Source: Aestuariivivens sediminis (GTDB lineage Bacteria > Bacteroidota > Bacteroidia > Flavobacteriales > Flavobacteriaceae). Taken from it: DNA of 64,000 bases. Position 1 is the stretch's first letter. Each line of letters opens with the position of its first letter. The DNA lies in assembly GCF_022662105.1 (NCBI RefSeq), contig NZ_JAKMCP010000001.1, positions 930,001 through 994,000 of the forward strand, read 5' to 3'. The translations under genes were made by a program, and so were the position numbers. Shown here piece by piece: positions 45,743 to 58,693 of this stretch. The notes below the pieces were generated by a model. That model made no database searches. It worked only from the letters and a program-made list of their open reading frames with translations, and was not told where the DNA came from.

Positions 45743-47989
45743 TTACAACTGTTTTCTAAACCATGTCAATACCAACATGGGCGCTAGAATTAAATCTACC
45801 GACAGGGCTATAATGATGATTATGGCCATAAACAGGCCGAGCGTAGCAATGGTTACCGTAGTCGATTTTATTAAGACCAAAAACCCTCCTATCAATATGA
45901 TACTGGTCGCCAATATGGCCTTACCACATTCTTTTTGAGCAATATATATGGCCTCTTCAATACCTTTTCCCATTTTCCTTTCCCATTGAAATTTACTCAA
46001 CAGATGAATGGTATCATCTACAGCAATCACAAAGCCAATCGTAAAAATCAAAGAAATTTCACCTCTTAATTCCAGTCCCGTAAAACCCATTATCCCGGCG
46101 GTAACGACCAGTGGGATAAAATTCAACACCAGGGCTAAGAGCATCAAGGCCATGTTTTTAAATATGACGCCCAGAGTTAAAGAAACCACCAACATGGCCA
46201 GAAGCAGCCCGAGTAACATACTATTGATACTTTTTTTCTGCGATACATCCATAAGAAAATCCATTCCCGACATCCTGGCATGAACCGGCTGATCTGCTAT
46301 TATTTGATGGACATGATTCAGAATGTCCCGGTTCAGTTTTTCTACATCCTCTCGTCCCAGTAAACCGGTTTGTGCCTTAAATTTAAACACCGTCTTTTCA
46401 GTATTAAACAAATAATTGTCTCGATTGCCTTTCCCAAACCCCTTTTCATAGTCCCTTATCGTCTTTTCATTGAACTTAAAATCATGAGCCCCTGCTGCGG
46501 AAGGATGCATGGCCTTTTGAATGGTTGTATAATATAATATGGGGGACTTTACCGCATGAAGTTTCTCGTGCTTTGAAAGATAGTCATGCACCCTGAATAA
46601 GGCCTTGAGAATCACGGGGTCATTCAATCTATGATCTTCCTCAGCTTCAATAACGAGTTCAAAGCGTCTTGATCCTCCAAAATGGTCTTCAAAAAACACA
46701 TGATCTTTTTTCAATTCACTGTCCCTTGGAATCTTATACTCCAGGCTATTGGTGTTTATAAAAAAAATCCCGCACCCGCCCAGGGCGATCAGCGCCCCGT
46801 AAAACATGAATATCTTATTTGGATGTTTCTGGATGTTTTGTGTTATGGTAAATATCCTTTGAAAGAAACCATCAAAATAACGGCCAATCGCAAAAAACCC
46901 CTTCACATTTTCATTGGCAAAAAATGCCGGTAACAATAACATGGTGAGCAAATAGGTGAACATGACGATAATCCCGGATTCCAGACCAAGATCTCTCATG
47001 GCCTTCATTGGCGCAATGATAAGGGTAAAGAACCCTATGGCAGTCGTGATGGAGGTAATAAAAGTGGTCCAGCCTATCTCCCGAAGGGCGATATGGGTCG
47101 CTTCTTTTGCCGATTTTCCGCGATGGCGTTCCACATCGTATTTAATCGCCAGGTGAATGACATCCGATACCCCAACGATTAAAATAATCGTGGGGAATAT
47201 ACTGGACATCATCCCCAATGGTTTGTCCAGCACAACCATGAATCCTAAAAAGACAATTATGGAAATAAGCACCACCAGCGTTGGAAATATTATGGCTTGC
47301 CATCTTTTGAAAATAAACAATAAGGCCAAAAAGAGGAATATAAAGACCCAATGCATAAAGCTCTTGAATTCTTTAAACAGAAGCTTCTTAAAGGAAAATT
47401 CAATATATTTTCGCCCCCATAAATAGGTTGTCGATCCGGTAAAAGCGCTTCTGAGCGCATTGATCTCATCAAACAACAGATCTTCCTGATCCTTGTCAAG
47501 GCCCTCACGGAGTTCAATCCAAAGAAATAAGGCGGTCCCCGCTTGATTTATAAAAAGATTCGTCGTCTCAAAATCCTTAACTATTTTTGTTTTATACCTG
47601 GATACATCGATGCTATCCTCTAACTTCAAATAAGGAAGCTCCATCATTCCGAAAAGGGTGTTTACCGGATAGGATAAATTATGAAGCCCCTTGACGTGTT
47701 CAACATTTTTAATTTGTTTTAATCTATCCGATAATTTTTGAACCTGAAGCATAAAAGACCTGTTGAACACATCCCGCTTATGGTCTATGGCAAGGATGAC
47801 CAGGTTCTCCTCCGTTTTTATTTCAGATTTCATCCTTTCATAAAAGGCATAATCGGAATCATTTTTATGGAAATACTGGGCGGAATCGGCATTGACCTGT
47901 ATTTGGGTCGCCCTGGTGCTAAAAAACAAGGTCAACACGATAACCAGTCCTAAAATCAAATACCTGTATTTAATTAAATAGGTTACCAT
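45743..47989 (-). CDS. MMPL/RND-superfamily transporter
   Basis: A 748-residue inner-membrane exporter of the MMPL/HpnN-like RND group, which moves lipids or hydrophobic products using the proton gradient. Two halves each have one transmembrane helix, a large periplasmic loop, then five helices. The relay motifs GVSDVIHLAIKY (from 273, first half) and AVDDTIHLLSKF (second half) carry the acidic residues. It is the last gene of the operon, 33 bp after the CmoA-like gene. No membrane-fusion or TolC-type partner is nearby, which fits MMPL proteins and not tripartite drug pumps. It is probably the export step for the product of region D. Confidence 0.87.
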   Translation of the reverse strand: MVTYLIKYRYLILGLVIVLTLFFSTRATQIQVNADSAQYFHKNDSDYAFYERMKSEIKTEENLVILAIDHKRDVFNRSFMLQVQKLSDRLKQIKNVEHVKGLHNLSYPVNTLFGMMELPYLKLEDSIDVSRYKTKIVKDFETTNLFINQAGTALFLWIELREGLDKDQEDLLFDEINALRSAFTGSTTYLWGRKYIEFSFKKLLFKEFKSFMHWVFIFLFLALLFIFKRWQAIIFPTLVVLISIIVFLGFMVVLDKPLGMMSSIFPTIILIVGVSDVIHLAIKYDVERHRGKSAKEATHIALREIGWTTFITSITTAIGFFTLIIAPMKAMRDLGLESGIIVMFTYLLTMLLLPAFFANENVKGFFAIGRYFDGFFQRIFTITQNIQKHPNKIFMFYGALIALGGCGIFFINTNSLEYKIPRDSELKKDHVFFEDHFGGSRRFELVIEAEEDHRLNDPVILKALFRVHDYLSKHEKLHAVKSPILYYTTIQKAMHPSAAGAHDFKFNEKTIRDYEKGFGKGNRDNYLFNTEKTVFKFKAQTGLLGREDVEKLNRDILNHVHQIIADQPVHARMSGMDFLMDVSQKKSINSMLLGLLLAMLVVSLTLGVIFKNMALMLLALVLNFIPLVVTAGIMGFTGLELRGEISLIFTIGFVIAVDDTIHLLSKFQWERKMGKGIEEAIYIAQKECGKAILATSIILIGGFLVLIKSTTVTIATLGLFMAIIIIIALSVDLILAPMLVLTWFRKQL

Positions 47990-48022: not shown

Positions 48023-48766
48023 TTACAGGTGGTCGACCATTGCCTTCTTTGCCAGAATACAGGCAAAATTGCACCACTTAAAAAAAAGCTGGGGATGCTC
48101 AAAATTTGCCTGACCTAATAAGGCCATGTTCTCCTCAAGGGTTAAGGGTTGCATAATATGTTTCAGACGCTCCTTTTTGGCCCTGATCTCCTCAAAAGTA
48201 AAATGATTTTCTTTCCACGTATGATGGACATTAACGAAAAAATCATGTTCGGCAGCGTCCGCATAACTTATCTTTTCACACAATATGAAATGGCCGTTGG
48301 GCTTCAGCGCTTTGTATATGCTTTCCAAAATGAAGGGTCTGTGTTCGGTTTTAATGAATTGAAACGTAAAGGCGGCTACAATAAGCTCAGCCGGTTTAAA
48401 TGTAAACGTTTCAAGGTCCTGGTTATAAAAGGTCACCTGCTTCATAGTTCTGCATTTTTCCCTGGCCACCTTTAACATGGACACGGATTTATCGACGCCA
48501 ACGTATCTTATTTTTGTGTTTGGATTGGCCCGATGAATACTTCGAATTATTTCGCCTGTAGCCGTTCCCAGATCATACACCAGGCTGTTATGAGAAAGGA
48601 TTCTTTTAGACAAAATACCTATGAGTTCCTGAATGTCGTTATAGCAAGGTATGGATTTCCTCACATGATCATCAAAAACCAAGGACACCTGATGGTCGAA
48701 TTCCCAGTCCCCGTCTCTTGATAAAATAATTTTCTCTATAGCTTCCGATGATTCCATAGGCTCCAT
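48023..48766 (-). CDS. CmoA-like SAM-dependent enzyme
   Basis: A 247-residue class I SAM-binding protein whose whole length resembles E. coli CmoA (carboxy-SAM synthase), recalled from memory: GDWEFDHQVSLVF, KSIPCYNDIQELIG, VYDLGTATGE, VGVDKSVSMLK, AFTFQF, CEKISYADA, HHTWKENHFT, NFEHPQLFFKWCNF. CmoA makes carboxy-SAM from SAM and prephenate for tRNA uridine modification. Here Tyr42 is kept, but the residue matching CmoA Asn132 appears to be Ala132, and the one matching carboxylate-binding Arg199 appears to be Lys198. It may therefore be an ordinary methyltransferase or an altered Cx-SAM enzyme. No CmoB gene is adjacent, so a tailoring role in the operon is more likely than tRNA modification. 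12 bp after the ICMT-like gene. Confidence 0.78.
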   Translation of the reverse strand: MEPMESSEAIEKIILSRDGDWEFDHQVSLVFDDHVRKSIPCYNDIQELIGILSKRILSHNSLVYDLGTATGEIIRSIHRANPNTKIRYVGVDKSVSMLKVAREKCRTMKQVTFYNQDLETFTFKPAELIVAAFTFQFIKTEHRPFILESIYKALKPNGHFILCEKISYADAAEHDFFVNVHHTWKENHFTFEEIRAKKERLKHIMQPLTLEENMALLGQANFEHPQLFFKWCNFACILAKKAMVDHL

Positions 48767-48778
48767 TGATTTATAGTT

Positions 48779-49390
48779 TTAAATCCATTTTCTGGTTCTA
48801 TTTCGGTACCTTTCATAGGCCTCTCCATGTAATTTATACAAATGTTCCTCCTCCAACAGGATTCGGATTGAAAAAATGAGATGCACTAAAATAATTATGG
48901 AAAAAGTGATCATATTGGGTGTCACCAAAAATAACCCAATGGTGCTTAAAAGCATCCCTAAAGCAATGGGATTCCGCGATACCTTGTATATCCCATCGGT
49001 TACGAGTGTGCCATGGGTTTCACTGGAATCTATGCCAATTCTCCACGCCCCCTTTAGTTGCATCTGAGAGAATCGTGTTAACAGCAATGATCCTATTAAT
49101 ACAACCACACCAATACCCTTCAAAAATGGGATCTCCAAATAGGGGATGGGGACCAATAGCTCATAATAGGTTGGAAAAAAGGCATACACCATAATATTCA
49201 TCATGAGACCGAAGAATATGCCATTACGGTACAATTGTAATTTATACATCACGGCATCGCTTTTTGTCACAACCCTTGGCTCAATATGATATTTATTCCT
49301 GAACGCCTTTATATTGAACACATATAGAACAAGGATATACACTACGAAGAATGTTATTAAAAAAATGCTGTAGAATAACTGTGTTTTCAT
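48779..49390 (-). CDS. Isoprenylcysteine/phospholipid methyltransferase-like membrane protein
   Basis: A 203-residue membrane protein with about five hydrophobic helices. The C-terminal SAM-binding signature of the ICMT/PEMT group is present: GTLVTDGIYKVSRNPIALG, then EEEHLYKLHGEAYERYRNRT. These enzymes methylate hydrophobic substrates (carboxyl, amine or thiol groups) at the membrane. In this operon a lipid-like amine or acid made by the neighbouring enzymes is a plausible target. 42 bp follow the P450 stop and 12 bp precede the CmoA-like gene. Confidence 0.82.
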   Translation of the reverse strand: MKTQLFYSIFLITFFVVYILVLYVFNIKAFRNKYHIEPRVVTKSDAVMYKLQLYRNGIFFGLMMNIMVYAFFPTYYELLVPIPYLEIPFLKGIGVVVLIGSLLLTRFSQMQLKGAWRIGIDSSETHGTLVTDGIYKVSRNPIALGMLLSTIGLFLVTPNMITFSIIILVHLIFSIRILLEEEHLYKLHGEAYERYRNRTRKWI

Positions 49391-49432: not shown

Positions 49433-50773
49433 TCAGGTCATCCATTTGATCTTAGCAGGCACTCTTTTTGGGCAAATCAATGCAGCTCTGCGAACCCTAA
49501 GGGGTTCATGACAGATCTCCACATCGAAGCGTTGCAAGGTGCGTATGAGGGTTAAAAATATAACCATTATCGCATAATGGTCTCCAATACATTTTCTATT
49601 CCCCCATCCAAAGGGCATAAAATAATGTTTCGGTCTGGTCTTTGCGTTTGCGTTCGTAAATCGTTCCGGCATAAATGAATCGGGTTGCTCCCAAAATTCA
49701 GGGTGCCTGTGTATATTGAAAAGTGAAATGCAAACGGACTTGCCCTTCGGGATCTTAACGCCATGGGATGTAAAGTTTACTTTAGCTTTACGCCAAATGG
49801 AAAACGCCACGGGATACAACCGCATCGCTTCAAAAACTATGGAAGTGGTGATCGGAAAATCGTGATAAAAATTTTGATGGAATGTATAATCTGCAGGTTT
49901 GGAACGTATTTCATCGCACATTTTTTTATAATACTTCGGCTGTTCTCCCAGGGCATACCATAGCATTGAAAGACTACAGGAAATGGGAAAATAGCCTCCG
50001 GCAAGCATGGTTTTCATTTCGTCCAGCATCACCCGTTTTTCATATGCGGAAGCTGATTTTTTCCCCAGACTTTGCATTAATGTACCTGCCAGGTCATCAT
50101 TATCGAATGCTTCCAATTGCCGTTGTTGTATAATGGCTTCAAGGATATCATCAATCTGTTTAGAGATTTTTTTAATTTTTAAGTGTACCGGTGACGGCAC
50201 CCAAAGCGGCATATAAAATGGAAGACCCTTGGCGATGTAACCTGTTCCTGTTTTAACCACATGTTTTATTTTCCCCACATATTCCCTAAGGTCGCTGTGA
50301 AATAACAAGCGCCCTGAAATCATTATGGCCCATGTCCCCATGACATCCGCAAGATCGATTTGGTCATTATTTTCAAGGGATTGCCCCCATAGGTCCAGTT
50401 CGCTGTCGATCTGTTCTAAAGCCTCATCCATTTGCTCATGTAATTGATGGTGACTGAACACCGGATTCAACAACCGTCTCTGTGAGGACCATAATTCCCC
50501 TTGACTGGTCACCATCCCATGGCCAAACAGCGTTGTGACCCGCCGACCAATAAAATCGTTTTGGGAAAAATCCTTTTGATCCCGATTTAATATATCCTTT
50601 GCGATATCCGGATGATTGATGAGATAAAAATAAGGACCACATGCAACCACATCGCCATATTTTGCCATAAGATCATAAAAATGAAATGCAGGAAACCTCG
50701 TTGCTCCCCTGAAAAATTCCAGTAGGGATGGTCCGCTTGCCTGATGTTCTTCTTTTATGGTATTAACTAACAT
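49433..50773 (-). CDS. Cytochrome P450 with atypical I-helix
   Basis: A 446-residue bacterial class P450. Heme loop FGWGNRKCIG (388-397, Cys395 ligand), ExxR EAMR (315-318), PERF (369-372) and WSSQRR C-helix (95-100) are all present, so heme should bind. The I-helix normally reads (A/G)Gx(D/E)T; here it is LAGGYFPISCS (257-267), with no acidic residue and no Thr for oxygen activation. P450s of this kind often run peroxygenase, isomerase or other unusual chemistry. No ferredoxin or reductase gene is near. The start overlaps the upstream GNAT-like gene by 11 bp, so they are coupled. Confidence 0.9.
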   Translation of the reverse strand: MLVNTIKEEHQASGPSLLEFFRGATRFPAFHFYDLMAKYGDVVACGPYFYLINHPDIAKDILNRDQKDFSQNDFIGRRVTTLFGHGMVTSQGELWSSQRRLLNPVFSHHQLHEQMDEALEQIDSELDLWGQSLENNDQIDLADVMGTWAIMISGRLLFHSDLREYVGKIKHVVKTGTGYIAKGLPFYMPLWVPSPVHLKIKKISKQIDDILEAIIQQRQLEAFDNDDLAGTLMQSLGKKSASAYEKRVMLDEMKTMLAGGYFPISCSLSMLWYALGEQPKYYKKMCDEIRSKPADYTFHQNFYHDFPITTSIVFEAMRLYPVAFSIWRKAKVNFTSHGVKIPKGKSVCISLFNIHRHPEFWEQPDSFMPERFTNANAKTRPKHYFMPFGWGNRKCIGDHYAIMVIFLTLIRTLQRFDVEICHEPLRVRRAALICPKRVPAKIKWMT

Positions 50774-51902
50774 GTTCCGATAGTTGTTTCTTATACAATC
50801 TGTAGTGTTTTGTCGGAGACCCTCCTATTTTCAATAGTAATGAGTTCATGGTCTTATTGGTGGACATGACGTAACCCGCCTCACAATGAAATATATGCTG
50901 TTGATGCAGGGCCTCTGTGATTTTTTGATATAATACCAGATCCATCCCTGTTCCCCGATACGTATCCTTGATACCGATTAACATCACGCGCGCTGATTGA
51001 ATGGATTTGCGATACTTTAAAATTTTAAAGATTCCGAATGGAAAAAGTTTACCATTGCGAATTTTCCGTAATACCTGGTTGAAATCAGGAACGGCAATGA
51101 TATACCCAACGATCTCCCCTTCGACTTCGGCAAACAAGGCCAGATCGTAGGGCATAATGGATTTTAACTCGGAGGCCAAATATTCGAATTCCACTTGATT
51201 AAGAGGCATGAATCCCCAACTGCCCTCATTGCATGCGTTGTAGGCCATCCTTAATTTGGTGATGTCCGATGTATAGGTTTTTGGCGACATCGCCCTTATT
51301 TCTATGTTATTCCTATGAAGGTGCCCTTCTGCCCTGCGCATGATATTCGCATATTTTTCCAATTGGGGCTTTTCAAAGATCTCATAGGCCACAAGATCGA
51401 TCACCCCGGTACATCCAACGGCTTTTAATAGAGTATCATAATAGGGATAATTGTAGGGCATGTTGATTTGATTTGGATATTCAAATCCCTTACACAGGAT
51501 ACCGCAGGAATCATTGGTCGTCGGATTGGTTGGCCCAATAATGGCTTTAATGCCTTTGGATCTTAACCAAATACAGGCCTGGTCTAAAAGCATTTTGCAG
51601 ATTTGCACATCGTCAATGGCATCAAAAAAACCGAAAAACCCACAGGAATCATTATACTTATCCAGGTGGGTCTTATTCCATATGGCGGCAATCCTTCCAA
51701 CGATTTTCCCTTCTTTGGATTCTTTGGCAAGAAATAAAGCCATTTCAGAATGCTTTAAAAAGGGATTTCGACGACTTAACCTGCCTTTTAGAGTGATATC
51801 AAGATCGGAAATATAATTTGGTTGATGTTCATAAAGCCGGCGTGGAAAATCAATGAACTGTCTTAACTCTTTTTTAGTATTTACCTCAATAATTATAGCC
51901 AT
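50763..51902 (-). CDS. GNAT-fold acyltransferase-like protein (YghO-like)
   Basis: A 379-residue protein of the type annotated as GNAT-family or YghO-like in Bacteroidota. Recognisable stretches are LYEHQPNYISDLD, FLAKESKEGKIVGRIAAIWN, FFGFFDAIDDVQICKMLL, IIGPTNPTTNDSCGIL and the C-terminal GNAT core (EVEGEIVGYIIAVPDFNQ, VMLIGIKDTYRGTGMDLVLY). In this family two GNAT-like lobes occur. It may transfer an acyl group to an amine made in the pathway, but no substrate is known. 16 bp after the fusion gene, overlapping the P450 by 11 bp. Confidence 0.72.
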   Translation of the reverse strand: MAIIIEVNTKKELRQFIDFPRRLYEHQPNYISDLDITLKGRLSRRNPFLKHSEMALFLAKESKEGKIVGRIAAIWNKTHLDKYNDSCGFFGFFDAIDDVQICKMLLDQACIWLRSKGIKAIIGPTNPTTNDSCGILCKGFEYPNQINMPYNYPYYDTLLKAVGCTGVIDLVAYEIFEKPQLEKYANIMRRAEGHLHRNNIEIRAMSPKTYTSDITKLRMAYNACNEGSWGFMPLNQVEFEYLASELKSIMPYDLALFAEVEGEIVGYIIAVPDFNQVLRKIRNGKLFPFGIFKILKYRKSIQSARVMLIGIKDTYRGTGMDLVLYQKITEALHQQHIFHCEAGYVMSTNKTMNSLLLKIGGSPTKHYRLYKKQLSEHVS

Positions 51903-51918
51903 AGCCTACAAAATTTGC

Positions 51919-54759
51919 CTAATCTGCCATTTCTTTAACCTGAGCACCTTCTATAAACCCATGGTTTAGCACCCGATTTCCCAATGCGATCACCAATGCC
52001 TTCGAAATTTCGCCAAATGAATAGGGGTCCCGATCCTGTTCAAAGCCCATAAGCATCGTTTCAGCCATGCATGCAAAGGCTTGTCCATCCTCTAAAAAAA
52101 GACCGGGAGGATACAGATTTTCACCGTTAACCAACCTCACTATACCGCCCTTTACCACTTGAAAATCCTTGTCTTCCAGCAAGTCCTTTTCACAGTTTAA
52201 CGGAACGGAGATATCACATATAAACGCTCCTTTTTTTAAATAGGCTTTATTAAGGAAGGGGGTTGGATCGCTGGTAGCCACTACGATCACATCGCAATCA
52301 CGAAGGCGATTTAAATCCGTCCCAATTTCAATTTTCTTATCGGACTCAAATTGCTTAGTGTAGGCGTTCCAAATGTTGACATAATGGGAACTTGATTGAT
52401 GCTCTGAAGCACCCTTGTCCATATCGAGCCGGTTAATTTGATCATAGATCACATTGTCGTACGCCTTCCCTTCCGCAAGGTCCTTTAAGATTTCCTGTAT
52501 TAAAAACCCGGCATGGTCCATGAGTTTATTCGGGTTGCCATTAAACCGCCCCAATAACAGCATTTTATCGCATTGATCCGCCACCATGGTGGATAATACT
52601 TTGGCTATGTTACCCCCTGCACCAATTACGGCCAGTTTGGTGGATTGCCCTTTACGGTTTATTATGGCTTCATATACTTTTTGCACTACGGTAAAGGCGG
52701 TATAACCATTGCCCGTTGTCACTCGAATATGGGGATTGGTTATGGCCTTACCGTTTTGCATGATCATTGAATTGTATTGTCCAAGACCTATTTTGGTAAT
52801 TCCCAGATGGTATAAAAGGTCAATGCCTTTATTACAAATCCCCTGATATTTTATGATATTCCCCATAGACTCCCGCATATCATCAATGATCATTTTAGCG
52901 GTAAAGGACAGCCCTACAAAACTGATACAAATTTCCCGGCCCGCGGCATCCTTTATTCTGTTGCGACCAATCACTACGGGTTCAGAAAAAGGGCTTAGTC
53001 TTTCTATCAGATAAAGAACCAGGTCCTCCGGTAAAATATCCAGGGAAGGCAAATAAGCCCGAATGGTATGCACATCTATATAGTGGAGCAAAAACCCAAC
53101 CTCATCCATGCTACCGTCCATTTCATCCCATTTTACCCTTTGGGGATTAAAATTTGAAACAGGTCGGAGATGTTGCCCTCTTTTGGGCAACAGAAAGGAT
53201 ATCAATGCGTAGAAATCGCCATACATCAAAATTTTACATAATTCCTCCAAGGCCTCAATCCATTGATTGATCTCCGCTTTATCCATAAATAAAGAAGGTA
53301 GGAGTCTAAGGGTTCTGGGGTCCGACAGGGTTACGGAAACCCTGATATGCTTTTCATTAAGTAAATACGCTGACAAGACATACCCAAAATAATTGGAACG
53401 GGATATCCCCTGAAGTCCAAAACTGGTGCTGTAATCCATACTTTCAAAACGGATTCCAATCATCAGTCCCAGGCCTCTTACTTCGCGTATAATTTGAGGG
53501 TATCGGTTCTGTAAATCCACCAAAGCATCAAATAAACAGGCACTTACGCCCGGTATCCTGTGACAGTTTTTTTCCAGTAATTCAAGACTTTTATGCGCCA
53601 TAACCGTACTGTAGTCATCTTCGGCAAAGGTGGATGAATGCAAGACATCAAACTCAGGGATGTACAACCGCTTTTCAATGGCTACGGCGCTTATTTTGGC
53701 AAGTCCGCCCCCTAGGGATTTCCCTAAAATATAGTAATCGGCACTGACCTTGTGATGAAAGGAGGCTAGAAACGGTCCTGTTCTAAAGCACCCACATTGG
53801 ATCTCATCGAAAATCAACGGAATGTTATACGCTTTGGTGAATCTCCTTAAATCCGTCAGGAATTCCTTCGACACCACATGTATGCCCCCTTCTCCAATGA
53901 TGGGTTCCAGGATCGCGGCGGCAATTAAATTGAAAGTCTTCGTTTTAAATACAAGTTTTCCGTCCTTGGATACTTTTGGTATGGAAATCTCAATCTCATT
54001 TTCTTTAAACAGGGCTTCGGGGCATTCCGTATTTATATCCAGATAGATCGTTTCAAAGGGGGCATTCCTTAAAAATGGCATCCTAAAGGCTTGATTGGAG
54101 GTAACGGAAAGCGCCCCTAAGGTTTTACCGTGAAAGGACTTATTTGAAGCTACAATTTTTGGTCGGTATGTATTTGAATTCTTATTCAATGATTCCATGA
54201 GAGACCGTAACGCCTCGATGGAATGAATTTCATAATCGTTATACATAAGGGGGCTCTGAGGACAGGTGTTAAAAAACGATTCCTGAATATTCATCAGTTC
54301 CCTGGACAGGTCATTATCGATTGCCATGAGTTTATTATAAAACGTCAGCATGGCATGCTTTATCGCGGCTTCAACAGCTTCGGTTCCGGAATTGAGAACC
54401 ATGGTCGTGTAGTTCGCACGGGTTTGAGAACCTATAAGGTCATTGATCTTATGGCAAAGGGCATCCAATTTTGATTTTTTAGATAATTGATGGTGGGCAC
54501 AGACATGGTCTCCGAGCAATTCCTGCGCTGTTCTTATGAGATCCGGATGATTATGCCCAAGAAGCAACGAACCATAGCCCCCTGCGAGATCAAGATATTT
54601 TACCTGCTCTTGTCCCGCATCACTATACAAGTAATTCCCTTTGGCATGATGAAATTCCTTGTCCAGTTTTAAAATAGACAACAACTCCTGCAAATAGGGT
54701 TTCGTATAGCTTGTATTATGAGATTCCTGCATAATGCATTTTATTTTTTGAAATGTCAC
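51919..54759 (-). CDS. Class III aminotransferase fused to acyl-ACP-reductase (AAR)-like module
   Basis: A 946-residue two-enzyme protein. Residues about 20-510 are a PLP class III (ornithine-type) aminotransferase: NSGTEAVEAA (123-132), IFDEIQCGCFRTGP (from 317), and Schiff-base Lys347 in LGKSLGGG. Residues about 560-940 resemble cyanobacterial acyl-ACP reductase (AAR): TTGNGYTAFTV, nucleotide-binding VIGAGGNIAK (713-720), VVKGGIVRLVNGE, and FACMAETMLMGFE with Cys897 at the place of the AAR catalytic Cys. Together they could reduce an acyl thioester to an aldehyde and transaminate it to a primary amine in one polypeptide. PigE and TamH in prodiginine and tambjamine pathways do similar chemistry. 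The start overlaps the upstream gene by 44 bp; Met10 is an alternative. Confidence 0.85.
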   Translation of the reverse strand: MTFQKIKCIMQESHNTSYTKPYLQELLSILKLDKEFHHAKGNYLYSDAGQEQVKYLDLAGGYGSLLLGHNHPDLIRTAQELLGDHVCAHHQLSKKSKLDALCHKINDLIGSQTRANYTTMVLNSGTEAVEAAIKHAMLTFYNKLMAIDNDLSRELMNIQESFFNTCPQSPLMYNDYEIHSIEALRSLMESLNKNSNTYRPKIVASNKSFHGKTLGALSVTSNQAFRMPFLRNAPFETIYLDINTECPEALFKENEIEISIPKVSKDGKLVFKTKTFNLIAAAILEPIIGEGGIHVVSKEFLTDLRRFTKAYNIPLIFDEIQCGCFRTGPFLASFHHKVSADYYILGKSLGGGLAKISAVAIEKRLYIPEFDVLHSSTFAEDDYSTVMAHKSLELLEKNCHRIPGVSACLFDALVDLQNRYPQIIREVRGLGLMIGIRFESMDYSTSFGLQGISRSNYFGYVLSAYLLNEKHIRVSVTLSDPRTLRLLPSLFMDKAEINQWIEALEELCKILMYGDFYALISFLLPKRGQHLRPVSNFNPQRVKWDEMDGSMDEVGFLLHYIDVHTIRAYLPSLDILPEDLVLYLIERLSPFSEPVVIGRNRIKDAAGREICISFVGLSFTAKMIIDDMRESMGNIIKYQGICNKGIDLLYHLGITKIGLGQYNSMIMQNGKAITNPHIRVTTGNGYTAFTVVQKVYEAIINRKGQSTKLAVIGAGGNIAKVLSTMVADQCDKMLLLGRFNGNPNKLMDHAGFLIQEILKDLAEGKAYDNVIYDQINRLDMDKGASEHQSSSHYVNIWNAYTKQFESDKKIEIGTDLNRLRDCDVIVVATSDPTPFLNKAYLKKGAFICDISVPLNCEKDLLEDKDFQVVKGGIVRLVNGENLYPPGLFLEDGQAFACMAETMLMGFEQDRDPYSFGEISKALVIALGNRVLNHGFIEGAQVKEMAD

Positions 54760-55768
54760 TCATTGGGACCTTATCCTCATGATAAACACGATGGCCCCCG
54801 GTATGCGATGTATAGCTCAACTGGTTTCTCAGGCTGTTGAAAAGCCATCGAATCATCCTGTTATGATGATAGAGACACATTTTATTATTCCTTTTATAGG
54901 CTCCAAACCGGGCTTTGGAAATTTCGGCGGTTTGACCAAGATTTATGACATGACATTCTCTATGGATTCCTTCCTTGATGATCTCAATCAAATTATTGGT
55001 ATAGGAATCATACGTATCCCGGGCCTTATAATCCAGTCCTCCAAAAAGGAAATAAAGGGTCTTATTTTCCTCCAGCGTAATATTCCAGTACAACAGTTTT
55101 TCGTTATCGTAAAAGGAATTCAGATTAAAGGGTTCCGGAAGGGTTTTAAAAAAGGCCATACTCAATATTTCAAGTTTGGTTTTCGAGCGTTTAACCACCT
55201 CAAGATAGAGTTCATAATGGCGTTCTGTAAATGCCCCACAAGGTTCCCTACGTCCGGTAACAGTAGCTGTTTTATCCAGTGCTTTTAGGATACGTCTGCG
55301 ATATGGATGTCTCAATGCCTGCATGTACCCCTCCCAACTGTCATGTTCTATTTGAAAAATCATACTGGGCAAAGAGGTCATGTTAATGGTCTTGAAGTTG
55401 GGCAGGTCCTGTGCGTAATTTAAACAGAGCACTATCCCGCGTTCCTTCCGAAATATATGGGACAAAAGCGTCTCCACATAGGGATCACTTCCCCATACAC
55501 CGCTTTCGTCATTTGAAATGGGTAATCCAATAACCTGCATGGGAAGTTTAAGTTCCAGTTTTGAAAAGGTAAAGAGATTAATCTTTAAGGAATACACTAC
55601 CGCTCCGGCACATAAAACCCCCTTTTCATGGAGCGTATAATAGCGCTGATTCGAATGATTCGTCCGTTCCAAGTGCGACAAGAAGGAACGCTTCTGATAG
55701 ATGGAATGCGCGATATGGTCCCATTCGGGACTTAATTCTTGAACCTTGTTAACTTTTTCAATACTCAC
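54716..55768 (-). CDS. FemAB/GNAT-like transferase
   Basis: A 350-residue protein that looks like the double-GNAT FemAB/peptidoglycan-ligase-like or GNAT acyltransferase group. Visible features are HPYRRRILKALDK in the middle, and the C-terminal lobe NKTLYFLFGGLDYKARD, YTNNLIEIIKEGI, VINLGQTAEISKARFGA. Such proteins join acyl or aminoacyl groups to amines. No exact family can be given. It lies 11 bp after a radical SAM gene and overlaps the fusion gene, so it is part of the same operon and may condense the pathway amine with an acyl group. Confidence 0.7.
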   Translation of the reverse strand: MSIEKVNKVQELSPEWDHIAHSIYQKRSFLSHLERTNHSNQRYYTLHEKGVLCAGAVVYSLKINLFTFSKLELKLPMQVIGLPISNDESGVWGSDPYVETLLSHIFRKERGIVLCLNYAQDLPNFKTINMTSLPSMIFQIEHDSWEGYMQALRHPYRRRILKALDKTATVTGRREPCGAFTERHYELYLEVVKRSKTKLEILSMAFFKTLPEPFNLNSFYDNEKLLYWNITLEENKTLYFLFGGLDYKARDTYDSYTNNLIEIIKEGIHRECHVINLGQTAEISKARFGAYKRNNKMCLYHHNRMIRWLFNSLRNQLSYTSHTGGHRVYHEDKVPMSDISKNKMHYAGIS

Positions 55769-55779
55769 TTCAACCGGTA

Positions 55780-57300
55780 TTACATTGGAACTTCAGAGGG
55801 CACCTTTTCGGAACTATGTATGAATGCTTTAAATGCGTCATGCCTAAATTTATCGCTAAAGGTTAGGTTTTCAGGACGTGGTCCTTTAAATCTTGATCTT
55901 CTTATCTCCTTTGGGGAGTGATGGGTGTAACTGAATAAAAATTGTCTGCCAATCTTCAACGCACCCAGTATCAGCCTCCAGTAATCGCGTGTCCAAATGG
56001 ATGGAAGGGTTCTAAAGGTGTTTACACGTGCACTTCTCATGTTTAGCGTCGTTTGCGCATAAAGTTTTAGAAGCTCCCAGTAATACGCCTTTAATGAAAC
56101 TTTAGTTGGAGACAATTGATGAGACAGGTCAAACAAGCTGTGTGCATCCTCGGGAACCGTAAGCTGGTCTTTGAATTCATGATAATTTTCAGCGCCGGGT
56201 AAAGGGGTTGCCGGAGATATATTGACATAATATAAATGGTTATCATTAATAAATTTTGCAAGACGTCTCCAATCCGCTTTAGTGTAATCCGGGCCCGGAA
56301 TAAGTGATCCGTAAGTGTCAATCTCATGTTTTCTTAACACCTTAATGGCTTCAATATTGCAATAGGCCGGCAACTGTTTGTTCATGCCGTCCAATTCTTC
56401 ATCCGTGGTAGCCTCAAGACCAATAAAAACAGCCTTGAGTCCCAATTGCGCCCAATGCGCAATAATATCTTCATTTTCCGCCACGAAATCCGCTCGCGCA
56501 TAACAGAGATAGTTTTTCTTAATGTTATGTTTCCGAATAAGTCTTGATAGTTCATTGAGCCTGCTTTTATTGATGAGGAAGATGTCGTCGACAATATAAA
56601 TTTCATCGGATTCTATGGTCAACAATTCCGCTACAATGGATTGTGGGGACCTGCTGTATGGCAGTCCATCGGTAATTTTCCAGGTAAAACAGAAGTTGCA
56701 TTTATACCAGCATCCCCATGTGGTTTTCATCGTTGCCACGGGACGATGCATCAGGTAATAGTACTTATGTCGAAGGTGGGACACCAGGCTGCGGCTTGGG
56801 AACGGTAAATCGTCCGGTTTGGGCATGTAGGCCCTTTTTTTGGTGCTATACAATTTCCCTTCCCCATAAGGAATGGCAATTCCGGAAACCTCCGTCAGGG
56901 AGGTTCCGTATTCAATAGCATCAATGATTTCAGGCATGACCATGGTGCCATCTCCCATGCCTATAATGTCGACAGAGATATCGGCAAAATCCTGCGGAAC
57001 CAGGGTGGCGTGAACGCCACCTACCACCGTAATGCAATCGGATTTCACCGATTTTACATAGCGGAATATTTTCAACACTTCATTCGTCCCCGTTTTATAA
57101 CAGCTACTCACCACAACGTCCGGATTGAAATCCAAAAACCGTTGTTTAAACCCGCGTTCCACCAAATGATCAAATAGCATTAGTTCATGTCTTTCGAGAT
57201 TTGCGGCAACATATTCCAATTCCAGGGGCTCACAGATCATGATGTGCTTGAGTCCGATGGTATGTTTTGGCACCGGTGGACGAACTAATAAAATTTTCAT
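55780..57300 (-). CDS. B12-binding-domain radical SAM enzyme 1
   Basis: A 506-residue radical SAM protein with an N-terminal cobalamin-type Rossmann domain (about 1-140: ILLVRPPVPKH, VVSSCYKTGT, TVVGGVHATL, IGMGDGT) and a radical SAM core whose [4Fe-4S] cysteines are Cys197, Cys201 and Cys204 (GCWYKCNFCF). The layout is that of BchE/HpnJ-type and class B methyltransferases. They methylate or rearrange unactivated carbons. The C-terminal region (from about 400) is family-specific and unrecognised. 43 bp after the second radical SAM gene. Confidence 0.88.
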   Translation of the reverse strand: MKILLVRPPVPKHTIGLKHIMICEPLELEYVAANLERHELMLFDHLVERGFKQRFLDFNPDVVVSSCYKTGTNEVLKIFRYVKSVKSDCITVVGGVHATLVPQDFADISVDIIGMGDGTMVMPEIIDAIEYGTSLTEVSGIAIPYGEGKLYSTKKRAYMPKPDDLPFPSRSLVSHLRHKYYYLMHRPVATMKTTWGCWYKCNFCFTWKITDGLPYSRSPQSIVAELLTIESDEIYIVDDIFLINKSRLNELSRLIRKHNIKKNYLCYARADFVAENEDIIAHWAQLGLKAVFIGLEATTDEELDGMNKQLPAYCNIEAIKVLRKHEIDTYGSLIPGPDYTKADWRRLAKFINDNHLYYVNISPATPLPGAENYHEFKDQLTVPEDAHSLFDLSHQLSPTKVSLKAYYWELLKLYAQTTLNMRSARVNTFRTLPSIWTRDYWRLILGALKIGRQFLFSYTHHSPKEIRRSRFKGPRPENLTFSDKFRHDAFKAFIHSSEKVPSEVPM

Positions 57301-57343: not shown

Positions 57344-58693
57344 CTACACAATTCCGGGGGTGATCCCGCGTCGAATGTGGTTTTGATAGATCATATTTGT
57401 CCCAAAGACAAATAATCTCATGAAATAATTTAATCCGGCAGGATTTCCTTTTAATCGTTTTATGATATTTTTAGTGGAATACAAGCGTTTATACAGATTC
57501 CAATAGCCTTCCTGCAGGGTTTGTGCCGACATCCTTTTAGGATGAAAAACGGCAGAACCTCCTACATATTTCTTAAAGTCAAAATCAAAAATTCGGCCTT
57601 CCTCCATTAATTGATTATACATGGGGGTTCCGGGTACCGGGGTTAAAATGTACATCCTTGGTAATGCAATTTTATGGGTCATAAGGAATTTAAACGTACG
57701 GTCAAAAACAGTCTCGTCATCGCCATCAAGCCCCAGGATCATCTCTGTACTAATTTCAATGCCATGCTTTTTTATGTTGGCGAAGGCGGTGCCGTAATTC
57801 TTAGGATCGTTCCACTCCTTGTCGATATGGGTAAGACTCTCCTCGTTAACCGTTTCTATTCCAAAGGACAAAATTCTACACCCGCTGTCGTAGGCCAGCT
57901 GAAGCATCTCATCCTCCTTGGCGATTTGCAAACTACACTGACTGGCCCATATGATCTTTTCCGGGATCAAGGCAGTCCATAATGCTTTGCAGTAATTAAA
58001 ATCTACGCCTATGTTATCATCAATAAACGTTATGTACTTACTCCCATGGGCTTTTGCCGCCCTAACGTCCCTTATCACCTGGTCGACCGGTCTTTTGCGG
58101 TAACTCCGTTTAAAAAACTCTGAAATGGAACAAAATGTACATGGAAAAGGACATCCGCGAGTGGCTTGAACGGGTCTCCAGAACCCATAATACTTGGCGT
58201 TGAATTTATCATAGGAGGGGGGTGGAAAAGCCGTGACATCGGGAACTTTTTCCATGGTATAAATAGGCTTGATCTCATCGTTCAGATAGTCCCTTAAAAA
58301 CCGTGGCCAGGTATCTTCCGCTTCTCCTTTAATGATCACATCGGTATGGGGTTTGGTCATGGCATCATCAAATAATGAAATAGCGATACCTCCCATGACC
58401 ACTATCGCTCCCCGTTTTCTGAATTCGTCCCCAATTTGATACGCCCGGATCACTCCGGCGCCTCCCATTCCCGTAAGCCCGACAATATCCCATTTCTCAT
58501 CCCATGGAATGGGCTCCGAAGTTTCAGAAACACAAGTAACCTCAAAATCATCCGGAGTTATAGCCGCCAGTTGAGGCATGGTTAATCCCGGCAAATAGGT
58601 TTTTCGCTGTACAATAGGGTTTCCCTCCCTATCCAAGCCCGTTGGGCTTATTAGAAGAATTCTCGCTTTACTCACATTAAAATTATACTCCAA
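57344..58693 (-). CDS. B12-binding-domain radical SAM enzyme 2
   Basis: A 449-residue radical SAM protein: cobalamin-type domain (about 10-145: ILLISPTGLDREG, WDIVGLTGMGGAG, VVMGGIAISL, IKGEAEDTW), iron-sulfur cysteines Cys181, Cys185, Cys188 (GCPFPCTFCS), then the usual core motifs ITFIDDNIGVD and ILSFGIETVNEESL. The C-terminal part looks like the DUF4070 tail seen in this group. It is the first gene of the operon. The start is TTG (CAA on the plus strand at 58691-58693); no ATG is available nearby. The N-terminal B12 histidine motif DxHxxG is not visible, as is common in this subgroup. Confidence 0.87.
   Translation of the reverse strand: MEYNFNVSKARILLISPTGLDREGNPIVQRKTYLPGLTMPQLAAITPDDFEVTCVSETSEPIPWDEKWDIVGLTGMGGAGVIRAYQIGDEFRKRGAIVVMGGIAISLFDDAMTKPHTDVIIKGEAEDTWPRFLRDYLNDEIKPIYTMEKVPDVTAFPPPSYDKFNAKYYGFWRPVQATRGCPFPCTFCSISEFFKRSYRKRPVDQVIRDVRAAKAHGSKYITFIDDNIGVDFNYCKALWTALIPEKIIWASQCSLQIAKEDEMLQLAYDSGCRILSFGIETVNEESLTHIDKEWNDPKNYGTAFANIKKHGIEISTEMILGLDGDDETVFDRTFKFLMTHKIALPRMYILTPVPGTPMYNQLMEEGRIFDFDFKKYVGGSAVFHPKRMSAQTLQEGYWNLYKRLYSTKNIIKRLKGNPAGLNYFMRLFVFGTNMIYQNHIRRGITPGIV

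Follow-up and report, generated by a model that had tools for sequence, protein, structure and literature searches.

The 64,000-nucleotide stretch of the Aestuariivivens sediminis genome analyzed here (termed the window) holds one gene whose predicted product would convert an acyl thioester into an amine. The protein joins a class III aminotransferase to a C-terminal domain related to acyl-acyl carrier protein reductase (AAR), an arrangement abbreviated as an AT-AAR fusion. The AT-AAR family is known and the fusion as an enzyme is ordinary; the informative part of the locus is formed by the genes neighboring it, and what is new is this unusual pathway setting, in which AT-AAR lies beside an acyltransferase of the type found in ceramide clusters and is exchanged with an alpha-oxoamine synthase within one genus. 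The setting suggests an unrecognized ceramide-like lipid route without a serine-using enzyme, and the best overall explanation, which we regard as probable, is an off-loading enzyme of the kind described for TamH and KecF that feeds its amine to a YghO-type acyltransferase.

The region 51919-54759 is occupied by one long open reading frame (ORF) on the minus strand, running from a GTG at 54759 to the stop codon at 51919 and encoding 946 amino acids, and the residue numbers used here follow this ORF; frame 1 of the plus strand is full of stops. The true start is likely the in-frame ATG at 54732, giving a protein of 937 amino acids, because the relative in genome G681 also begins with an ATG, followed by a similar N terminus that is two residues longer, and because starting at the ATG produces a 17-base overlap with the upstream stop in both genes. 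An earlier sequence-only reading, which did not state the strand, had proposed a single protein with an N-terminal class III aminotransferase and an AAR-like C-terminal part, and this is borne out; the two features by which an AT-AAR fusion is recognized, a class III aminotransferase with its pyridoxal phosphate (PLP) lysine and a C-terminal AAR-like domain with its cysteine, are found in the window protein. The class III match (PF00202) covers residues 37-506 with an E value of 7.3e-64, and the best PDB match of this half is CrmG (PDB code 5dds) with 220 bits over residues 18-511. Lys347 and the DEIQ motif (D318-E-I-Q) are present as that reading described, with Asp318, Glu319 and Lys347 kept in all 10 aligned fusions and Gln321 in nine of them. 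Eight other stretches of the host genome match the fusion, all inside the aminotransferase half.

The reductase half is most closely related to AAR and PigE. Residues 540-946 alone score 77.9 bits with the PigE model and 59.4 bits (3.6e-16) with the AAR model TIGR04058, compared with 23.8 for hemA, 22.2 for SbnB and 14.9 for FolD. A PDB sequence search with this half returned PigE and three AAR sequences at E < 0.1 and glutamyl-tRNA reductase (GluTR) at 0.11, and a nine-row profile of the domain matched PigE (PDB code 4ppm, 3.2e-56) and cyanobacterial AAR (2.3e-38), followed at a distance by the carmabin-pathway "TAD" (5.8e-7) and then by GluTR (2.2e-6). The Pfam scan, in which no AAR model appears, gave Shikimate_DH (32.3 bits) as the sole match of the C-terminal part. 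GluTR, FolD, SbnB, shikimate dehydrogenase and ornithine cyclodeaminase were considered as its family and rejected, all being weaker than AAR and PigE. The possibility that another dehydrogenase family would fit better, or that Cys897 would be misplaced, is thereby answered in the negative at the level of sequence: no such family surpasses AAR and PigE, the "FACMAE" around Cys897 aligns with "FACFAE" of AAR, the PigE cysteine aligns too, and Cys897 and Glu900 are invariant in all 11 aligned reductase domains.

Two features asserted in the sequence-only reading stand in part. The likeness to cyanobacterial AAR holds in that AAR is among the best families and the cysteine is kept, but the score lies far below the TIGR04058 equivalog cutoff of 449.7 bits, and on this evidence the half is AAR-like and not an AAR equivalog. 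The glycine-rich nucleotide site is present (residues 713-719) but with alanine as its third glycine, as also in G681 and G759, whereas the other eight of the 11 rows have glycine; the full GxxGxxG motif noted for TamH, which was not treated as defining, is thus not found in the window protein. Single weak matches to TIGR04058 were not used, since the model also gives low-scoring matches in 8 of 14 control genomes (above the cutoff in one) and on other host genes. A structure model of the domain built from a two-row alignment (the window protein and a stand-alone relative, L009) has a mean pLDDT of 45; Foldseek placed seven AAR chains first with it (best 5.3e-10, TM-score just 0.31), VIA-align 2 gave AAR a Z score of 8.6 at rank 26, level with many Rossmann proteins, and the model is treated as uninformative.

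The fusion is a member of an already known kind, because KecF, TamH and PigE have been described with these domains. KecF of the koreenceine pathway has an N-terminal aminotransferase and a C-terminal AAR-like domain, the latter proposed to reduce a polyketide bound to acyl carrier protein (ACP) and the former to transaminate the product (available part of PMC6498172). TamH consists of an N-terminal transaminase and a C-terminal AAR homologue, and in vitro it converted TamA-bound C12 to the C12 amine with NADH and L-Glu, aldehyde being detected when Glu was omitted (available part of PMC9594044). In PigE an N-terminal AAR homologue with Cys296 is followed by the aminotransferase (available part of PMC8341465). 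The view that PigE and TamH differ from the window protein in reductase type and domain order is refuted, as TamH (2022) and KecF (2019) share both its order and the AAR-type reductase, and for PigE the reductase type is the same (an AAR homologue) and the order alone differs. Both homology and the characterized homologue PtTamH (TamH of Pseudoalteromonas tunicata) lend good support to the proposed conversion, within one protein, of an acyl thioester through an aldehyde to an amine, and from this relationship we consider the chemistry very likely. Channeling of the aldehyde within the fusion is plausible, and it has already been proposed for PigE by analogy with the GluTR-GSAM pair (PMC8341465).

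The fusion gene lies within a run of nine minus-strand genes extending from 58693 to 45743 in the order rSAM-A, rSAM-B, FemAB-like, fusion, GNAT-like, P450, ICMT-like, CmoA-like and MMPL, where rSAM denotes a radical SAM protein (Table 1). The B12-binding domain of rSAM-A is weakly matched (PF02310, 22.4 bits, below the cutoff of 32.1). The window copy of the FemAB-like protein matches no family at E 0.01, its relatives match FemAB_like or FemX weakly and under cutoff, and when profiles of the GNAT and FemAB-like families were compared with the PDB, nothing scored below E 0.01. The FemAB-like protein was also considered as another YghO relative, which was ruled out (hhalign E 0.4). Elsewhere in the window, between 3517 and 43345, several frames, judged by eye, resemble genes for SusC/SusD, anti-sigma factors and glycerophosphodiester phosphodiesterases that recur in sets, as expected for Bacteroidota.

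Table 1. Positions of the AT-AAR fusion, its domains and key codons, and the other genes of the operon
Feature	Window position	Strand	Basis or remark
rSAM-A: radical SAM, BchE-like, B12-binding domain weak	57344..58693	-	TIGR02026 101.8 bits (cutoff 481); PF04055
rSAM-B: B12-binding radical SAM, HpnR-like	55780..57300	-	TIGR04367 210.8 bits (cutoff 650); PF02310 and PF04055
FemAB-like protein, 350 aa, core member	54716..55768	-	family alignment; overlaps fusion gene
AT-AAR fusion gene, likely CDS from ATG, 937 aa	51919..54732	-	longer mechanical ORF from GTG 54759
PLP-dependent class III aminotransferase domain, residues 18-511 (span matched by CrmG)	53227..54708	-	PF00202; CrmG 5dds
Lys347 codon, PLP lysine	53719..53721	-	aligned in 10/10 fusions; codon read directly
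AAR-like thioester reductase domain, residues about 552-946	51922..53106	-	TIGR04058 3.6e-16; profile against PDB
Glycine-rich nucleotide-binding motif G713-AGGNI-A719	52603..52623	-	Ala in place of the third Gly
Cys897 codon, predicted acyl-transfer cysteine	52069..52071	-	counterpart of AAR Cys294, TamH Cys887, PigE Cys296; codon read directly
GNAT-like N-acyltransferase, 379 aa, YghO/Aca relative	50763..51902	-	next gene after fusion
Cytochrome P450	49433..50773	-	PF00067 1.4e-63; in 4/4 AT-AAR clusters
ICMT/PEMT-like membrane methyltransferase	48779..49390	-	PF04191 1.2e-12; outside shared core
CmoA-like class I methyltransferase	48023..48766	-	TIGR00740 180.5 bits (cutoff 193.3); outside shared core
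MMPL/HAE3-type RND transporter, putative lipid exporter	45743..47989	-	PF03176 8.3e-23

Part of this gene set could be read as a hopanoid or terpenoid pathway with a triterpenoid as its product, which would be modified and exported by the HpnR-like radical SAM protein, the P450 and the MMPL transporter and would receive a side-chain amino group from the aminotransferase. rSAM-B does match HpnR (210.8 bits), the MMPL protein is weakly HpnN-like and the two best models of the P450 are terpene oxygenases, but the HpnR and HpnN scores are far below the curated cutoffs, so that rSAM-B does not qualify as HpnR. The C-terminal domain of squalene-hopene cyclase (SQHop_cyclase_C) is absent from the window genome and occurs in one of the six cluster genomes (G759, E 1.2e-4, where the cutoff is passed only together with its neighbors in the frame). 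The lack of the cyclase domain in the window genome and the sub-cutoff HpnR score make this explanation strongly disfavored, and we regard it as very improbable.

The gene directly after the fusion points in another direction. Its product has in Pfam a weak GNAT match alone (E 0.0062, under cutoff) and is a full-length relative of the E. coli BL21(DE3) protein YghO, with 33% identity over 385 columns (220 bits, 6e-73) and an hhalign E value of 1.9e-61; in that strain yghO adjoins the genes for a fatty acyl-AMP ligase (FAAL), an epimerase, ACP and Spt (serine palmitoyltransferase). A Caulobacter gene that enters this comparison, CC_1154, is presumably the one that others call bCerS. The gene yghO is also named aca, for an acyl-CoA N-acyltransferase that is the counterpart of CC_1154, one of five genes required for dihydroceramide in Caulobacter (available part of PMC9386255). 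Relatives of the window acyltransferase occur in 42 plasmid records, and five of these, taken from among twelve listed and not at random, were opened. By annotation, the relative lies beside PLP-dependent (oxoamine-synthase-like), ACP, epimerase and FAAL genes on Rahnella, Klebsiella and Pseudomonas plasmids, beside FAAL, epimerase and LptF/G genes on a Roseomonas plasmid, and beside a PLP-dependent gene and an NAD(P)-dependent oxidoreductase on an Aureispira plasmid.

Among relatives of the host, an alpha-oxoamine synthase lies within 1.5 kb of the acyltransferase in 16 of the 30 best loci, the other 14 including the cluster copies of the window itself and of G003, a genome of the same genus; none was present in a small, non-random control set, for which 36 pieces, each 4.1 kb long, were taken from the window and from four other loci. 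The host has a second acyltransferase copy (L087:5109-8823, G000:C10) beside an oxoamine synthase that is under cutoff and a cysteate synthase that is over it (647 bits, cutoff 600), and because of this combination sulfonolipids are probably among the lipids of the host as well. In a 35-row tree of the GNAT family, which omits the cut G759 copy and in which YghO and the G801 copy are long branches, five cluster copies and YghO fall on one side (100/100) and the 29 other copies on the other. The protein folded alone gave a pLDDT of 33, and this model was not used.

Four genomes of the order of the host, those of the window, G681, G759 and G801, share a six-gene core comprising two B12-type radical SAM proteins, the FemAB-like protein, AT-AAR, the GNAT-like acyltransferase and the P450. 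G681 keeps the gene order of the window, with identities of 78% (rSAM-A), 74% (rSAM-B), 47% (FemAB-like), 53-54% (AT-AAR), 59% (GNAT) and 63% (P450), and downstream of the core it has ABC transporter-type genes in place of the methyltransferases and MMPL. In G759 and G801, which belong to another family of the order, the same six gene kinds are rearranged; the G759 cluster has in addition a desaturase and a DUF3419 gene, and its GNAT gene is cut at the contig end. The fusion is rare in genome samples that overlap with each other. The reductase half was matched at 1e-5 in one of 395 phylum-sample genomes (that of the window) and in 4 of 299 family-sample genomes, namely the host, G681 (54%), G453 in an ANL-AT-AAR protein and G526 in what reads as a hemA-like gene beside a hemC-like one. 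The domain profile at 1e-12 found 3 of 395 order-sample genomes (the host, G759 and G801), and the whole protein at 1e-30 found the host alone among 60 relatives and none of the three other genomes of its genus.

The distribution of rSAM-B extends beyond that of the fusion. At 1e-90 it is found in 3 of the 395 order genomes, the same three as the AT-AAR profile, and at 1e-100 in 4 of the 299 family genomes, where the host and G681 have AT-AAR and G003 (same genus) and G558 (same family) do not. In the latter two clusters an alpha-oxoamine synthase and a short-chain dehydrogenase/reductase (SDR) occupy the place where the others hold AT-AAR, so that an exchange of the predicted amine maker is visible between species of one genus. 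The P450 accompanies AT-AAR in all four clusters, and none was seen in the examined stretches of the G003 and G558 clusters. The G003 synthase has 33% identity to E. coli Spt.

Read from the sequence are the domain types, the predicted catalytic residues, their order, the operon and the relation of the acyltransferase to YghO, and from these the following pathway can be proposed. An acyl thioester, probably acyl-ACP, would acylate Cys897, and the AAR-like domain would use NAD(P)H to reduce the Cys897 thioester to a fatty aldehyde, which the aminotransferase domain with Lys347 would convert to a primary amine, L-Glu being the probable donor. The long-chain amine would then take the place of the sphingoid base in bacterial ceramide synthesis, and the YghO/Aca-type acyltransferase would N-acylate it to an N-alkyl fatty amide that is ceramide-like and has no serine-derived head. 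Decoration of the chains may fall to the two radical SAM proteins and the P450, and export of the product to the MMPL transporter. The coupling of the AT-AAR amine to N-acylation, argued from context, has in our judgment slightly better than an even chance; each decoration step is less probable than the coupling, and the roles suggested for the FemAB-like protein, the methyltransferases, the P450 and the radical SAM proteins are guesses. The case for a ceramide-like route draws on the YghO relation, the tree branch, the oxoamine synthase neighbors and the exchange of AT-AAR with oxoamine synthase and SDR in one slot. Tentatively, and with a probability we place a little under one-half, it would form a second route to ceramide-like membrane lipids in which AT-AAR replaces Spt and the ketoreductase and yields N-acyl 1-aminoalkanes, with both radical SAM proteins and the P450 editing their chains.

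Several observations weigh against this pathway. In tblastn searches at 1e-3, whose controls were found, the E. coli queries for ACP, FAAL, Spt and a CerR-like epimerase and two Photobacterium ketosynthase (KS)-like proteins gave no match anywhere in the window or in the G681, G759 and G801 stretches, to which the search was confined, and a motif scan of short frames revealed no carrier protein; by these searches the window shows no Spt-type cluster and no ACP or FAAL gene near the fusion. TamH gave no amine from acyl-CoA and needed the acyl-ACP supplied by TamA (PMC9594044). E. coli YghO is stated only as what "might be" an N-acyltransferase, the genetic requirement coming from Caulobacter (available part of PMC9386255). 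In the sister clusters BioF is the model that fits the oxoamine synthases best, and they are under every cutoff (for G003, BioF 329, BioF/Kbl 321 and serine palmitoyltransferase 317 bits in NCBIfam), and for this reason their product is putative and unproven. A tree of 11 AAR-like domains gives very weak support (26/15) for a common origin of the copies in the four operons, and no MMPL gene was seen in those parts of G681, G759 and G801 that were examined.

The remaining observations of this kind concern the acyltransferase, and they would be accommodated if the fusion makes an amine and the acyltransferase acts on something else, the two genes being merely neighbors. The acyltransferase family is common in the order of the host (79 of 99 genomes at 1e-10), and the genes of G759 and G801 are arranged differently, the G759 copy being a cut end that reads away from the core and the G801 copy being inverted and on a long branch. 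We nevertheless consider chance proximity rather improbable, as a copy stands beside the fusion in all four operons (in G759 as the cut end only) and the cluster copies branch apart from the others.

Relatives of the fusion outside these clusters have varied neighbors. A tblastn search of plasmid records with the reductase half at 1e-5 found 10, five from Leisingera and one each from Rhodovulum, Photobacterium, Paraburkholderia, Haematobacter and Pseudorhodobacter; viral contigs contained no relative of the fusion, and of 13 stretches from a pattern scan of genome contigs one encodes a relative. This is the stand-alone AAR-like gene, with both Cys and Glu, of a bacterial metagenome-assembled genome (L009:3363-4472), and it adjoins a gene reading like a ferredoxin oxidoreductase beta subunit. 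The G453 protein (L016:1543-5970, G453:C220) is encoded by one 1475-amino-acid frame and joins an AMP-binding, a class III aminotransferase and an AAR-like domain, perhaps combining acid activation, reduction and amination, and it adjoins MMPL-type and DUF3419 genes. The plasmid of Leisingera sp. NJS204 encodes a 1395-amino-acid protein with the order AT, AAR-like and AMP-binding (L021:9614-13801), preceded by a lipoprotein-sorting gene and followed by an MMPL gene, and the search with the reductase half also matched the four other Leisingera plasmids. On pBPHY01 of Paraburkholderia phymatum (L023:7296-14037) the N-terminal segment of the frame is carrier-protein-like, being weakly matched by E. 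coli ACP in tblastn (1.8e-4), and precedes AT-AAR, and downstream lie a FAAL-like gene (35%) and, by eye, P450-like and ICMT-like genes. DUF3419 genes stand beside two different AT-AAR clusters (L036:301-1383, 3.5e-52; L016:433-1539, 5.9e-35), a family that we take to be linked with BtaA-type aminocarboxypropyl transfer. G759 has a second AAR-like C-terminal fragment (L038:3591-3965, G759:C245), cut by the contig end and near-identical by eye to the copy on C219, which is perhaps a second copy or an assembly duplicate. In Photobacterium sp. DA100 (L018:7403-21814) AT-AAR lies with KS-like genes, two SDR, a lipoprotein-sorting and an MMPL-type gene in what is read as a koreenceine-like cluster; Photobacterium is not named for koreenceine in the available part of PMC6498172.

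The fusions whose products are given in the available parts of these reports, TamH, PigE and KecF, serve natural products of the alkaloid type, and the Photobacterium relative lies among KS-like, SDR and MMPL genes, from which it could be argued that the window amine likewise cyclises or joins a pyrrole and is not N-acylated. Such a product is unlikely, as the searches described above found neither KS-like nor FAAL or ACP genes, family scans of ten window proteins detected neither a ketosynthase nor an AMP-binding domain (no search aimed at pyrrole genes was made), and the conserved partner is instead an acyltransferase of the ceramide-cluster type.

If the ceramide-like route is true, bacteria make ceramide-like amide lipids without serine palmitoyltransferase. 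In at least one survey of producers of such lipids that enzyme is the marker (available part of PMC11334938), and producers using AT-AAR would therefore be missed in it. In the openly licensed literature no paper was found that joins acyl-ACP reductase and a transaminase or aminotransferase with sphingolipid or ceramide, and nothing pertinent on radical SAM or cobalamin with sphingolipid or on N-acyl alkylamine. The related cluster pair in one genus, with oxoamine synthase in one and AT-AAR in the other and several genes shared, allows a direct genetic test. As an enzyme, the window protein adds a member to the AT-AAR fusions, among which TamH has been demonstrated to turn carrier-bound fatty acids into fatty amines, a chemistry useful for biocatalysis.

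Among known systems, PtTamH, which serves tambjamine YP1, resembles the window protein in domain order, in the linker (about 50 residues in PtTamH and about 40 here) and, compared by description, in length and catalytic residues (941 amino acids, K340 and C887 against 946, K347 and C897), and CrmG is both the closest structural homologue named for TamH (PMC9594044) and the best PDB match of the window protein. PtTamH differs in being NADH-specific and paired with the ANL-ACP protein TamA, whereas no ANL or ACP gene was found in the window, the third glycine is alanine and the neighbors are of ceramide and radical SAM type. KecF of Pseudomonas koreensis, also compared by description, differs in its proposed type II polyketide substrate, no KS-like gene having been found in the window. 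PigE, of Serratia prodigiosin synthesis, has the same two domain families and ranks first among the PDB matches to the domain profile, but has the reductase first, and the window protein scores 269.9 against the cutoff of 850 for the PigE equivalog model NF053554. Cyanobacterial AAR (TIGR04058; PDB codes 6jzq and 6jzy) is homologous in two blocks with the catalytic cysteine aligned, whereas it is a stand-alone enzyme feeding ADO for alkane formation, and between the matched blocks the window domain is about 55 residues longer (97 compared with 42). The dihydroceramide genes of the E. coli B/Caulobacter type (spt, acp, FAAL, epimerase and aca/yghO; PMC9386255) share with the window locus the full-length YghO relative, which here stands beside the fusion, and differ in that the amine maker is Spt plus a reductase there and AT-AAR here. 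The sister clusters of G003 and G558 share rSAM-A (54%), rSAM-B (52-54%), the FemAB-like protein (27-29%), the YghO-like GNAT protein (33-36%) and MMPL with the window and have the oxoamine synthase, the SDR and a third radical SAM protein in place of AT-AAR and the P450.

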